This document shows positions 1 to 8,905 of a stretch of DNA of 64,000 bases, piece by piece. Each line of letters opens with the position of its first letter. The stretch's first letter is position 1. A model generated the notes under the pieces. That model was given only the letters and a program-made list of their open reading frames with translations, did not search any database and was not told where the DNA came from. The stretch is from contig CANLZY010000007.1 in the NCBI GenBank assembly GCA_947495685.1, positions 1 through 64,000 on the forward strand. Direction: 5' to 3'. The stretch comes from an uncultured Tropicimonas sp. GTDB lineage: Bacteria; Pseudomonadota; Alphaproteobacteria; Rhodobacterales; Rhodobacteraceae. The position numbers and the translations under genes were made by a program.

Positions 1-326
1 TCAGAAAGACAGGCACGGACATCGGCTCGGTTCCAGACATCCGGGCACCGCACCGGAATCTCCAGCCGAAACACTCGACGCCAGTCTTCGCCGAATCCGG
101 CATCGGTGGCGCCCCCCCTGCTCATGGCGCAATCGGCGGCATAGGCTGTTGCGGCGACGTCCAGCAAGTCATGAACCACGTCAGGCAGGTTTGCCACCAG
201 GTCCTGTTGCAGCATTCCAACCCGGAAGGTCATCCGGATTGGTTTGCCGTCGATAGTCAGGGACAGTTGTTCTGTGCCGCCGACCAACGGGCCTTCCAAC
301 CGAACAAGGACGGGCTCACGCAGCAT
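1..326 (-). CDS. Partial gene, N-terminus of a QueC-like (QatC-like) protein (tentative)
   Basis: Only the first 108 codons are visible; the rest lies beyond the left edge. The ATG at 326 overlaps the end of the upstream gene by 11 bases, so the two are translationally coupled. The visible part has a beta-rich start followed by DLLDVAATAYAADCAMSRGG (about residues 52-71) and WRRVFRLEIPVRCPDVW (about 82-98). I recall this pattern from the N-terminal extension of 7-cyano-7-deazaguanine-synthase-like proteins found in anti-phage loci (Qat type). The PP-loop that would prove this lies outside the window, so the assignment is an inference from memory. It could equally be an unrelated accessory protein. 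Confidence 0.4.
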   Translation of the reverse strand, partial: MLREPVLVRLEGPLVGGTEQLSLTIDGKPIRMTFRVGMLQQDLVANLPDVVHDLLDVAATAYAADCAMSRGGATDAGFGEDWRRVFRLEIPVRCPDVWNRADVRACLS

Positions 327-1089
327 TGCCCTGGCGTTCCAGTTCGCCGCGAAGCTTCTGCATCGAATAGTCTGTGAACCGGCGAATGCTCTCGGGCGTC
401 AACCCGTCACCCTGCCAGACAGTCTTGCCGTACCATCCGCCGGCATAGGTTTCCACGATACGTGCCGACTCGTAGGTGTGCCGGTCCAATGCCCGATCAA
501 AGGCTACCCGATCCGCATCCGACGCAAACCGCTGACCGGGGCCGACGTGGTTCGAAAGCTCACGGCTGAGATAATATTGCAGGGTCTGGTTGACGACATG
601 GGCAAAGAACCCGCGGGCAAACCGCGCAAAACCATCGCCGGACGACAATTGGCCCAGGGACCGGCGGATCTCGGCCGCTGTCGGTTCAAACAGACTTGGC
701 AATGAGTGATCGAAGTATTCGGACAGCGACGTCAGCAGAGCCGTCTGCCCAATCTCGCCAAGGTCGGACCGAAACCCCAGCCGCAGACTTTTTTCATCAA
801 TCGCCTGCGTGATCCCGGACAGGACTCCGGGAACACTGTCGAGATCGGTGATCCCGCGCGCCGCCATGGCGTCCTGAAAGCCCGGTCCCCTGGCGTCCTG
901 CGGAAGACGTGCAAGCAGGTCCACAATGGCAAGAAAGAGGGGGTCCTTCGGCGCCGTCTTCAACGACTCCCTAGAGGCATCGACAGCCTTCGACGCAACA
1001 ACCTCAACAGACGCATCCGTCTGCAGAAGATCCACAACCTCCCGCCACTTCCGCGTCCGCGGCAACACACCTAGCCGGATATGACCCAA
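316..1089 (-). CDS. Hypothetical protein, partner of the QueC-like gene
   Basis: A 257-residue, mostly helical soluble protein with no signal peptide, membrane segment or domain I can name. It opens with MGHIRLGVLPRTRKWREVV and carries a run rich in aromatic and charged residues near positions 155-190 (FARFARGFFAHVVNQTLQYY, then RELSNHVGPGQRF). The start is a TTG at 1089 preceded by a strong GGAGGGGAG ribosome site; no ATG or GTG lies in frame nearby. Its end overlaps the next gene by 11 bases. Position beside a tRNA 3' end and coupling to a QueC-like gene suggest an accessory, possibly defence-related, module. Function unknown. Confidence 0.65.
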   Translation of the reverse strand: MGHIRLGVLPRTRKWREVVDLLQTDASVEVVASKAVDASRESLKTAPKDPLFLAIVDLLARLPQDARGPGFQDAMAARGITDLDSVPGVLSGITQAIDEKSLRLGFRSDLGEIGQTALLTSLSEYFDHSLPSLFEPTAAEIRRSLGQLSSGDGFARFARGFFAHVVNQTLQYYLSRELSNHVGPGQRFASDADRVAFDRALDRHTYESARIVETYAGGWYGKTVWQGDGLTPESIRRFTDYSMQKLRGELERQGNAA

Positions 1090-1155
1090 ATCATCACTCC
1101 CCTCCCACGAGAGGACTCCGAACCGGGCATCAATGCCACTGGGAAAAATGTCTCA

Positions 1156-1228
1156 GGTGCGATCAAAGTTGAGAAATGATCGCCCGCACCGAACAGCGTT
1201 CGCAAAACGGTGCGATCCCGGTGCGATC
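1156..1228. repeat. Three direct copies of GGTGCGATC near the tRNA 3' end
   Basis: Exact copies lie at 1156-1164, 1209-1217 and 1220-1228; a near-inverted form (GATCGCCCGCACC) lies at 1179-1191. They fill the gap between the accessory gene pair and the 3' end of tRNA-Thr. Short repeats at such a place can be integrase or excisionase arm sites, but no integrase is in the window, so this role is only a guess. Confidence 0.45.
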
Positions 1229-1277
1229 TGGCACAAACTCCGCCAAACTGAAAACACATCTAACTGTCTGATTTTAT

Positions 1278-1353
1278 TGGTGCCGCTGAAGGGACTCGAA
1301 CCCCCGACCCCATCATTACGAATGACGTGCTCTACCATCTGAGCTACAGCGGC
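1278..1353 (-). tRNA. tRNA-Thr (anticodon CGT)
   Basis: A 76-base cloverleaf. The acceptor stem pairs GCCGCTG with CAGCGGC, followed by discriminator A and an encoded CCA. The D arm contains TAGCTCAGATGGTAGAGCA. The anticodon stem CGTCA/TGATG encloses the loop TTCGTAA, giving anticodon CGT (threonine, ACG codons). The T arm contains GGTTCGAGTCC. Its 3' end faces the accessory gene pair at 1-1089, the usual geometry for an element integrated at a tRNA gene. Confidence 0.97.
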
Positions 1354-6397: not shown

Positions 6398-6976
6398 ATG
6401 CGCTATCAGATCAGCGGTCACCAGATCGACATCGGGGAATCCCTAACCACCCATGTCAAAAAGGAACTTGCCGAAGCGGTCGGAAAGTATTCCGATCGAC
6501 CCACGGATTGTCAGGTGATCTTTTCGAAGCGCGGCCACGAGTACATGTGCGAGACGACCGTACACCTCTCGACGGGCTTGAACGCAAAAGCAAGCGGGCG
6601 GGCATCCGAGATCTATGCAGCATTCGACGATTGCCGCGAGAAACTCGAAAAACAGCTGCGCAGATACAAACGCCGGCTGAAGGACCACTACAAGGATCGC
6701 AAGGAGCCGGTTGAAGTCTTTGGCGCAGCCTCGTATATCCTCGCCGCATCTGACGATGGGGCAGACGGGCAGGAACCCGAGACGCTCCAACCGATGATCA
6801 TCGCGGAGATGCAAACCCAGATTCCCACGTTGTCGGTGGGCGAGGCTGTGATGCACATGGAACTCGCCGGTGCGCCGGTTCTGGTTTTTCGTCCCGAAGG
6901 TGAAGCCGCCGTCAACGTGGTCTACCGCCGCGAAGATGGCAACATAGGCTGGATCGATCCGAAAACCGGACGCTGA
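6398..6976 (+). CDS. hpf: Ribosome hibernation promoting factor, long form
   Basis: A 192-residue protein that dimerises and silences 70S ribosomes in stationary phase or starvation. The N-terminal S30AE domain (about 1-110) begins MRYQISGHQIDIGESL and ends in the basic helix KLEKQLRRYKRRLKDHYKDR. The C-terminal domain (about 133-190, TLSVGEAVMHMELAGAPVLV) is the dimerisation module of long HPF. The ATG at 6398 follows AGGAGG by 4 bases. It is followed 38 bases later by ptsN, a gene order common in proteobacteria. Confidence 0.95.
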   Translation: MRYQISGHQIDIGESLTTHVKKELAEAVGKYSDRPTDCQVIFSKRGHEYMCETTVHLSTGLNAKASGRASEIYAAFDDCREKLEKQLRRYKRRLKDHYKDRKEPVEVFGAASYILAASDDGADGQEPETLQPMIIAEMQTQIPTLSVGEAVMHMELAGAPVLVFRPEGEAAVNVVYRREDGNIGWIDPKTGR

Positions 6977-7014
6977 TCCAGGCACCGGCGTCAGCTCGGA
7001 CACATGGATGGAAC

Positions 7015-7479
7015 ATGGATCTTTCGAAAATTCTGAGACCCGAGGCCGTCAAGGTCATATCCGAGGCGAGCAGCAAGAAACGGCTGTTTCAACGCTTGGG
7101 AGAGATCGCGGAATCCGCCTATTCTCTGGACGGATCGCAGGCGGCCGAAGCGTTGATGGAACGCGAGAGCCTTGGGCCAACAGGCGTGGGACATGGCATT
7201 GCCCTGCCCCACGCACGTCTGGATAACGCCGGCTCGGTTTCAGCTGTTTTCTTCAAGTTGGAGCGCCCGCTCGAATTCGATTCGGTCGACCGCCAGCCTG
7301 TCGATCTGGTCTTTGCACTGTTCGCGCCCGAGGATTCGGGCGTGGAACACCTCAAGGCCCTGGCTTTGATCTCGCGCACAATGCGCAACCCGTCCCTGTG
7401 TTCCAAGCTGCGGGCAAACGACAATCCCATGACCTTGCATACCGTGCTGACGGAAGACGGGTCGCCTCAGGCGGCCTGA
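7015..7479 (+). CDS. ptsN: Nitrogen-PTS regulatory protein EIIA-Ntr
   Basis: A 154-residue EIIA protein of the regulatory, non-transporting phosphotransferase chain (PtsP-NPr-EIIA). The phosphorylated histidine is H66 in GHGIALPHARL. It usually controls potassium transport, nitrogen and envelope responses by protein-protein contact. It follows hpf, as in many proteobacteria. It ends 4 bases before the convergent sulfotransferase gene. Confidence 0.95.
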   Translation: MDLSKILRPEAVKVISEASSKKRLFQRLGEIAESAYSLDGSQAAEALMERESLGPTGVGHGIALPHARLDNAGSVSAVFFKLERPLEFDSVDRQPVDLVFALFAPEDSGVEHLKALALISRTMRNPSLCSKLRANDNPMTLHTVLTEDGSPQAA

Positions 7480-7483
7480 TCTC

Positions 7484-8905
7484 TCAGCCGCGCCAACGGC
7501 GAAAGCCGAACGCCATGAAATCTCGATTGTAGACGGCACGGACCGCTGCCTCGATTTCTTCGTCATAGATGGATGCCAAACCGGTCGGTGCGCAGATGGC
7601 CGCGTCCGGAACTGCTGGCATCTGCCGCCGCGCAATCTGCTGGCTCAGCTGTGCAAGGCCGAGGCCCAGTTGATCCGTACGAATAACCATGTCGGGGGTC
7701 AGGACATCGGACAGACCGGCCAACAACCCCATCTGTGACGCCCAGGCCGGATCTGTGCGCAATTGGGTCTGCCCGGCCAGATTCTCTTTGACGAACCGCA
7801 GGAAGGCCAGGAAGGCCACCTTGCGACCATCGGCTTCAAGCGCGGCCCCATCGTCAGGAAAGGGTGCGCCAAAATCATCCCGCAGGGCGCGCCGAATTCG
7901 CGCAAAGCTTCCCGGCCCGGTATCAAGGATGTAGCGTTCGAACACCGCATAGCTGCGCGCCACCGGATGACTGACAACCGTGAAGCTGCGCGCATCCTTG
8001 TTCTGGTTCTTCCATTGGCGCAGCGTCTTTCGGGTGAAATCGCGCCGCAGGGCATCGGGCTTTGCTCCATCCAGCCCGGCCAACCAGACCGAAAGGGCTT
8101 CGGTGGGCCCGCCCTTGATCGGCATGAACAGAAGCGGTGCTTCCAGCGCTGCAACGAAGGTTGGAACAGCAACCTCGTGCCGTGCTTCGGCGGGGACACC
8201 CTGGGTCATGCCTTGCAAGTTCATCCTGGCCAACGCGGCCTGCATGTCCGCATGGTTTTCGACCTTGTCGCTCAACGGTGCGGGGTTTTGGCGTTTCAAT
8301 CGGGTCGATACCGCCTGCAACTGATGGTCGTGCCCAAGGAACCGCGCAAGACCGTTCAGGATCTCGACGTCGCCGACCTGATCATAGGATATCTGGAAGG
8401 CGGCTTGCCCGGTGACCTGAAGCTCTCTTTGAAGGTAGGCCTGAAACGCCTGCAACTTTTGTAGGTGGGCCTCGAACTCTGTTGCATCGAACCGGACGCG
8501 GGCGGACTTCCGATGCTTTTCGTCGGTCAGCCGCCATTGCCCGGTCACAGCGGCGATCTTGCGCGAGACGTAGGCCTCCAGCGGATTTCGCGTCAGGATG
8601 ATCTTTGCGAACCGGGGATCGGGCACCACAGCGTCCAGTATCCGCCGATCATGGTCATGAAAAAATCGAAATCCGCCCAGACCCTGTGTGCCTGTCCGAA
8701 TCTGATCCAGCAACGCCAATGGGTCTGAATCGCGCGCGGCACGGTCCATGCCGAACAGGTCGGGCCAGTTGTGTTGCCCGACAAAACCCGGATTGAATGC
8801 TTCACCATGGCACTGCAAACCCGGAAACAGGTTGATGTTTTCCTCTAGGTAATTCGAGCCGGTCCGCATTTCTGCAAACAGGATAAAGCCATCGAACCGC
8901 GTCAT
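7484..8905 (-). CDS. Two-domain sulfotransferase
   Basis: A 473-residue cytoplasmic protein. The N-terminal half is a NodH/Stf0-like sulfotransferase: FAEMRTGSNYLEENI (about 11-25) is the 5'-phosphosulfate loop and KIILTRNPLEAYVSRKI (about 101-117) the 3'-phosphate site for PAPS. The second half repeats the plan in weaker form (LLFMPIKGGPTEALSVWL, then FTVVSHPVARSYAVFERYIL), like carbohydrate sulfotransferases. It probably transfers sulfate to a surface glycan made by the neighbouring glycosyltransferases. It follows the GT14 gene by 3 bases. Which domain is active cannot be told from sequence alone. Confidence 0.75.
   Translation of the reverse strand: MTRFDGFILFAEMRTGSNYLEENINLFPGLQCHGEAFNPGFVGQHNWPDLFGMDRAARDSDPLALLDQIRTGTQGLGGFRFFHDHDRRILDAVVPDPRFAKIILTRNPLEAYVSRKIAAVTGQWRLTDEKHRKSARVRFDATEFEAHLQKLQAFQAYLQRELQVTGQAAFQISYDQVGDVEILNGLARFLGHDHQLQAVSTRLKRQNPAPLSDKVENHADMQAALARMNLQGMTQGVPAEARHEVAVPTFVAALEAPLLFMPIKGGPTEALSVWLAGLDGAKPDALRRDFTRKTLRQWKNQNKDARSFTVVSHPVARSYAVFERYILDTGPGSFARIRRALRDDFGAPFPDDGAALEADGRKVAFLAFLRFVKENLAGQTQLRTDPAWASQMGLLAGLSDVLTPDMVIRTDQLGLGLAQLSQQIARRQMPAVPDAAICAPTGLASIYDEEIEAAVRAVYNRDFMAFGFRRWRG

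Follow-up and report, generated by a model that had tools for sequence, protein, structure and literature searches.

A probable QatBC-type gene pair beside tRNA-Thr(CGT) in a Tropicimonas genome, and its relatives in tRNA islands

What are the two overlapping genes that lie next to tRNA-Thr(CGT) at the left end of contig C7, and do they form an anti-phage module carried by an integrated element, as the initial annotation proposed? The contig belongs to the 5.6-Mb genome (189 contigs) of an uncultured Tropicimonas sp., and its left end is also that of the window, that is, the whole stretch of 64,000 nt analysed here. Because C7 ends at position 1 of the window, no sequence can be read further left in this contig. 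We therefore examined the pair itself, its homologs in other genomes and the remaining contigs of the same assembly.

Results

The gene pair beside tRNA-Thr(CGT)

ORF calling and ARAGORN agree on an overlapping gene pair located just past the 3′-end of tRNA-Thr(CGT) (Table 1). The start codon of orf257 lies 188 bp beyond the 3′-end of the tRNA, and the gene shares 11 nt with the partial qatC-like gene that follows it. Three 10-mers in the spacer are possible candidates for integrase arm-type sites, and two GGTAAGC-type repeats stand at the corresponding place in most relatives inspected.

Table 1. Features at the left end of the window
Feature	Position in the window	Strand	Basis and remarks
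tRNA-Thr(CGT)	1278-1353	minus	ARAGORN; sole tRNA of the window
orf257, QatB-like protein, 257 aa	316-1089	minus	ORF calling; TTG start; N-terminus MGHIRLGVLPRTRKW
qatC-like gene, 5′ part, 108 codons	1-326	minus	ATG at 326; truncated by the contig end
Putative ribosome-binding site GGAGGGGAG	1097-1105	minus	Read from sequence; 7 nt ahead of the orf257 TTG
Three near-identical 10-mers (plus-strand CGGTGCGATC)	1155-1164, 1208-1217, 1219-1228		Repeat search

Neither Pfam (best E 0.22, below cut-off) nor PADLOC or NCBIfam returned a convincing match for orf257, in agreement with its earlier description as a protein of no known family. The partial gene matched QatC in PADLOC (E 2e-6) and the NCBIfam QatC model NF041925 (E 6e-6, 25 bits, model positions 8-58), and its product aligned with the N-terminal extension of full-length homologous partners.

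orf257 founds an unannotated protein family

Of 295 genomes sampled in the family, 20 have a homolog of orf257; the window genome is among them, and two of the 20 give weak partial matches. A wider genome-contig search added at least 70 loci, whose hosts were mostly Alphaproteobacteria with a few MAGs assigned elsewhere. Such recurrence exceeds what a chance ORF would show. Phage sequences gave no match, and plasmids a single one, in Leptospira noguchii. In seven of eight congeners we inspected the 8 kb around tRNA-Thr(CGT) and found no copy of the pair and no integrase there. The pair is thus accessory, as had been proposed; neither a match to a housekeeping family nor synteny in most Rhodobacterales was found.

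For a closer comparison we gathered 88 loci, leaving out the broken copy L047, and removal of eight duplicates gave 80 distinct ones. The QatB-like protein starts with MGH in 78 of these 80, the residues being counted after the family-aligned start codon, for which ATG, GTG and TTG are all given as M, and the two remaining rows (L108 and L118) show an apparent frameshift near the N-terminus. Among the 78 MGH N-termini, G2, H3 and L6 are invariant, P10 is present in 73, and position 15 is occupied by W (47 proteins) or L (31). In a 66-row alignment comprising the window and 65 loci (without L071, L106, L108, L118, L122 and L038-L055), positions 2-6 hold three of the 11 columns that, besides Met1, are invariant (P = 6e-4 for evenly spread columns). 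The AlphaFold2 model of orf257 is helical, with a pLDDT of 90.6 overall and below 50 at residues 1-6. Existing models miss the family: 15 of 15 members had no match in PADLOC and four of four had none in NCBIfam. orf257 is therefore the founder of an unannotated protein family.

A remote relationship to QatB is probable

According to the initial annotation, the 257-residue protein would be a partner not matching QatB, and this is right only in part. QatB was absent among the best 50 of 536 Foldseek matches of the orf257 model, and E ≤ 0.001 was reached by no match in the PDB or viral libraries, though the PDB library includes the QatB-QatC complex 9y01. A PDB sequence search with the QatB-like profile returned one match at E 0.1, which was not QatB. 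Profile comparison, however, suggests a remote QatB relative. When the family was compared by hhalign with seven or 16 canonical QatB, scores of 32-36 were obtained over the helical core (HH-suite probability 22-47%), and 40 further ORF families taken from these loci as controls, clustered mechanically and some of them possibly shadow ORFs, scored 22.8 at most. Based on these profiles, we regard the orf257 family as probable remote kin of QatB.

The N-termini can also be set side by side. Canonical QatB starts with MGTS (or VGTS) in 14 of 16 proteins, two of these by way of an upstream in-frame start. Many QatB carry a disordered tail of 30-90 residues, according to PMC13279940. The first helix of the orf257 model begins at residue 13, so that such a tail is nearly absent.

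The partner is a QatC relative

A full-length partner frame (at least 560 codons) lies downstream of the QatB-like gene at 58 of the 80 loci. The other 22 have shorter frames (17 loci) or no frame above 150 codons (five, the window included), owing to breaks or contig ends. All 58 full-length partners contain the QatC-type motif [TS]R[TS]THP, and 57 contain the PP-loop pattern [SG]GGxDS and the Zn motif; a PxxxxTK-like pattern was seen in 47. The single partner without PP-loop and Zn motif is that of L071, where the QatB-like frame is broken.

NF041925 matched all four partners scanned with 188-204 bits over 313-343 residues, below its equivalog cut-off of 280. A partner profile run against PDB retrieved solved QatC structures at E 6.5e-58 (9vlk) and 2.3e-53, and the AlphaFold2 model of the L058 partner (pLDDT 88.9) matched QatC of 9y01 in Foldseek with E 5e-17 and a TM-score of 0.69 on the target. 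The kinship of the partner to QatC is confirmed by these matches, and with it the QueC-like, Qat-type character attributed to the partial gene from its first residues. Of the 58 full-length partners, 53 were aligned, L071 and four from L039-L055 being left out, and a tree was built of 49 proteins, of which 31 were pair-type, 16 canonical and two of a third type. Pair-type QatC form one side of a branch with support 99/92, canonical QatC are grouped with 100/96 and the third architecture with 100/100; the Leptospira pair-type protein sits on a long branch.

The QueC model PF06508 scored above its cut-off in four of six partner sequences scanned, as would be expected if the two genes were a non-defence enzyme pair whose QueC-like member makes a small molecule or modifies tRNA. 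This reading is highly improbable, given the QatC-type motifs, the N- and C-terminal extensions, the QatB-like partner and the mobile-island context described below, and given that E. coli QatC does not replace QueC (PMC13329287).

QatC-like coding stretches occur elsewhere too. Two Listeria phage records (OR848142.1 and OR846725.1) hold unannotated ones with 29% identity over 51% of the query. On a plasmid of Rhodobacteraceae bacterium SC52 (L135, 6022-7278) we observed the C-terminal part of a pair-type QatC (43% identity); an IS3 transposase gene lies ahead of it, and the 5′ part is missing.

An extra C-terminal domain that appears exchangeable

Pair-type partners (without L071) measure 605-650 aa, compared with 425-475 aa in 16 canonical QatC, and the additional tail carries a GYRL-type motif in 57 of the 58 full-length proteins. 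Within a set of 20 hand-picked tails, weak matches were obtained to Sigma70_r4_2 (seven tails), Trans_reg_C (six) and HTH_11 (five). The tail profile gave weak matches in PDB to TcpP and to response-regulator DNA-binding domains, the top match being an IFT20 chain (E 0.009). In the predicted L058 structure, the order strand-helix-hairpin fits a winged helix. In most partners the tail is thus apparently a DNA-binding domain of helix-turn-helix type, as far as these weak similarities allow. The Leptospira noguchii plasmid is an exception: there, a QatC-like protein (L055, 8780-10645), preceded by an MGH partner gene, ends in a DpnII/MboI-type restriction nuclease (Pfam E 1.2e-9). This one exception makes the C-terminal domain appear exchangeable.

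Further pieces of the pair in the same genome

A search of the window genome with NF041925 found C7, the start of contig C61 and one weak match (E 0.39), and a full-length homologous partner used as query found C7 and C61 only. Taken together, the own-genome searches with the partial protein, the QatC model and a full-length partner pointed to C7, C61 and two weak matches elsewhere. The QatC-like residues from about 110 to 240 of the window copy were not found in the assembly; the PP-loop (SGGxDS), looked for in the partial gene, was not seen there and falls in this unassembled gap.

The start of C61 (13.8 kb) covers model positions 206-347 within an open frame of 376 codons and carries ENG, TRTTHP, PFAWRTK, the Zn motif and GYRL. 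After this C-terminal half of qatC comes, in convergent orientation, a tyrosine-integrase-like gene, for which Pfam gives E 0.003 and the XerC/D-type models of NCBIfam E ~1e-7; none of these matches reaches its curated cut-off. Further on lies an HTH_17/excisionase-like gene (Pfam and NCBIfam). A broken relative of the integrase-like gene, with 39% identity and three TGA codons, is present elsewhere in the genome (G000:C29:61020-61772). C61 also holds seven repeats of a CRISPR-like array together with genes for Cas2, Cas1 and a Cas9 of 1083 aa (L013, 3659-8750), and these Cas genes adjoin the integrase-like gene and the qatC half.

The end of contig C23 (L002, 94902-95229) shows a comparable arrangement, with tRNA-Ala(CGC), a spacer like that of the window and the 21 initial codons of an orf257-type gene. 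The final 77 bp of this contig match window positions 1025-1101 exactly, as if the assembler had left a k-mer overlap at a repeat; the C23 copy may accordingly be near-identical to the window copy or alike in those 77 bp alone. The genome probably carries two such island ends, one at tRNA-Thr and one at tRNA-Ala. Since C61 may continue either of them, we kept the pieces unjoined, and for the same reason the PP-loop of the window gene itself remains unseen.

This unseen PP-loop, together with the 17 short and five missing partner frames among the 80 loci (partly contig ends), would fit a relic, in which the islands decay, the pair is often inactive and the window copy is a non-functional remnant. 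We consider decay improbable in view of the 58 loci that keep full-length partners with conserved motifs and of the frames that are open in orf257 and in both QatC fragments of the window genome.

The pair lies in tRNA islands and beside other recombination genes

A tRNA ends 124-188 bp ahead of the QatB-like start codon at 20 of the 80 distinct loci (Lys TTT, Arg TCT, Thr TGT and, in the window, Thr CGT). A convergent integrase gene stands at a fixed distance past the pair at 18 loci, and 15 have both. Five loci have a tRNA and lack the integrase: in three, among them the window, the sequence ends too early, and L043 and L061 have long flanks with none there; of the three with an integrase and no tRNA, L059 offers only 63 bp upstream, and no tRNA was detected in the long flanks of L064 and L068.

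In the four islands that we traced, the far end is marked by attR, a direct copy of 47-56 bp of the tRNA (96-100% identical) beginning at tRNA position 29, at distances of 13.7, 17.1, 34.8 and 32.0 kb counted from the start of the QatB-like gene. A seed-based search of shorter flank stretches returned no attR, and longer stretches showed it. Just before attR lies a further ORF with similar N-terminal sequence, which in G229 is an integrase (Pfam E 2e-26). In all four relatives, a directly repeated tRNA 3′ segment at the distal end goes together with an integrase. The cargo varies: the G229 island contains an N6/N4 methylase and a ResIII helicase, repeat-rich ORFs in G035 look like a CRISPR array, and C61 has Cas9. 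The 14-kb island of L039 (80-6058) holds an N6/N4 DNA methylase and a ResIII-type helicase, which suggests a further restriction-type system.

By analogy, tRNA-Thr(CGT) is the presumed landing site of an island in the window, and the duplicated segment would be tRNA positions 29-76 (window 1278-1325). A pattern search of the assembly allowing up to three mismatches found only tRNA-Thr(CGT) itself, and the C61 integrase-like gene may belong to this island or to the one at tRNA-Ala(CGC). The claim of an integrated element is confirmed in relatives by their attR repeats and integrase genes; the window's own attR was not found.

Neighbouring genes were typed from cluster exemplars only. One cluster of 18 loci is HTH_17/excisionase-like (typed on the C61 member); at other loci the exemplars are a large serine recombinase (32 loci), DUF2924 (also 32) and a D5-type primase (20 loci). 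Such varied recombination neighbours indicate that the pair is carried by several kinds of mobile element. Phmmer searches with three queries for each protein, run on the ORFs of flanks of varying length, found no QatD at the 80 loci and QatA at one of them, L083. In this locus, a KAP-family ATPase is encoded on the opposite strand just upstream of the pair (6500-7855); it is the sole QatA-like neighbour seen.

The convergent integrase, the tRNA in front of the pair at 15 of 18 loci, the HTH_17/excisionase-like cluster and the HTH-type end of the partner could all belong to a system that serves the island itself, the QatC-like protein with its DNA-binding domain controlling excision or excluding related islands at the tRNA. 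However, the pair also occurs beside unrelated recombination genes (the serine recombinase, DUF2924 and D5-type primase clusters), the Leptospira plasmid copy has a nuclease domain in place of the HTH, and QatBC relatives are defence proteins (PMC13279940). We consider island maintenance or regulation unlikely, if slightly less so than decay.

Host-made 7-carboxy-7-deazaguanine is an unlikely tag

PMC13279940 gives 7-carboxy-7-deazaguanine (CDG) as the tag of type IV CBASS and describes the group that QatC attaches to QatB as an open question. With one model per enzyme, we searched for the CDG pathway in 18 of the 20 homolog-bearing family genomes (95-100% complete), leaving out G015 and G144, which have weak partial matches. 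Three of these 18 carriers contain QueD (PF01242) and one, G208, a full-length canonical QueC; QueE (TIGR04508) was detected in none. The same models found QueD in nine, QueC in 12 and QueE in eight of 14 reference genomes, Caulobacter each time among them. Some PF06508 match was present in 14 of the 18 carriers, and from their position and partial coverage these matches are read as the QatC-like gene of the pair or as other PP-loop enzymes. In six carriers the partner is broken, cut or missing (G035, G064, G093, G191, G246 and G293); the other 12, including the window genome with its incomplete qatC, gave QueD in three, canonical QueC in one and QueE in none.

Across the family sample QueE was rare (7 of 120, weak matches of 31-42 bits), so that its absence is largely a property of the lineage and not specific to carriers. 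Because the pathway was not found in carriers, host-made CDG is an unlikely tag, which agrees with the published replacement of Tyr/Asp by Thr in QatC. The canonical QueC of G208 (G208:C22:475385-475987), with QueD and QueE undetected, hints at salvage or at another 7-deazaguanine system.

Some roseophages carry folE, queD, queE, queC and queF; the five genes are tabulated for a roseophage, possibly one of these, in PMC11981692. Such phage genes, together with carriers that lack most or all of the pathway, make phage-made CDG possible as an infection signal. We know of no carrier that meets such a phage. A speculative proposal, to which we give about as little credit as to the relic, is that no host-made CDG is used: the ligase would add another small acid or, in the boldest version, CDG of the infecting phage, in which case the modification would act as an infection sensor and the C-terminal domain as the effector arm.

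Discussion

A QatBC-type module without QatA and QatD

The reading that we prefer, with a probability of roughly two in three, sees in the pair a QatBC-type module that lacks QatA and QatD and is placed just inside attL of a tRNA island: the QatC-like enzyme would modify the QatB-like protein at its N-terminal glycine, and the module would restrict phage or other incoming DNA. The pair family has retained Gly2, the PP-loop and the Thr motif, and from these we infer the N-terminal modification. According to PMC13279940, QatBC alone defends against some phages, and both G2 of QatB and active-site residues of QatC are essential; by homology we infer an anti-phage function for the pair.

In the mechanism that we propose for this module, removal of fMet would expose the N-terminal glycine of the QatB-like protein, which would then enter the active site of its QueC-like QatC partner. 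With ATP, and by means of its PP-loop and Zn site, the partner would activate a carboxylic acid, probably not host-made CDG, and join it to the glycine. The C-terminal domain fused to QatC would guide or arm the modified complex, through DNA recognition or cleavage, and the complex would finally restrict phage or other invading DNA. In this scheme the part played by the C-terminal domain is the least certain step.

If so, the pair is a natural two-gene QatBC-like system in hosts with no detected CDG pathway, and would offer a minimal system for finding the real substrate. It points to QatBC as a unit that is self-sufficient in nature, joins the enzyme to apparently exchangeable DNA-binding or nuclease domains, and adds a QatB-like family that existing annotation has missed.

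Comparison with known systems

Like the Cap9/CD-NTase pair of type IV CBASS, as presented in PMC13279940, the pair combines a QueC-family ligase with a partner bearing an N-terminal glycine. In contrast to CBASS, the QatB-like partner has no CD-NTase model match (three members in Pfam, 15 in PADLOC and four in NCBIfam), and the pair-type ligase has the QatC-type Thr motif where Cap9 has Tyr/Asp.

On Ensifer and Roseomonas plasmids (L134, 4330-8065; L137, 4348-8081) we noticed a further QatC architecture, in which the small protein does not begin with Met-Gly at its annotated start. This variant of rhizobia and Roseomonas resembles the pair in having a small unannotated gene ahead of the QatC-like enzyme and in lacking annotated qatA and qatD within the stretch covered. 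It differs in its partner of 182-192 aa starting MSDG or (V)RDG, in its separate branch of the tree (100/100) and in the next gene, annotated as an XRE regulator or an ImmA/IrrE metallo-endopeptidase.

We found no paper in the open-licence literature on a pair devoid of QatA and QatD with MGH partners or C-terminal fusions. As qatA and qatD adjoin only about one third of the QatC cluster (PMC13329287), such pairs may already sit, undescribed, in published networks.

In contrast to qatABCD, no QatD was found in the flanks examined at the 80 pair loci, and a QatA-like KAP ATPase was seen there at L083 only. The N-terminus of the pair family reads MGHxRLGxLP, unlike the MGTS of QatB, and has almost no disordered tail; pair-type QatC is longer, has the extra C-terminal domain and occupies a branch of its own. 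What the pair shares with qatABCD is the QatC fold with its PP-loop, Thr pair and Zn site, a Met-Gly partner gene just upstream whose end overlaps that of the enzyme gene, and a mobile or defence context.
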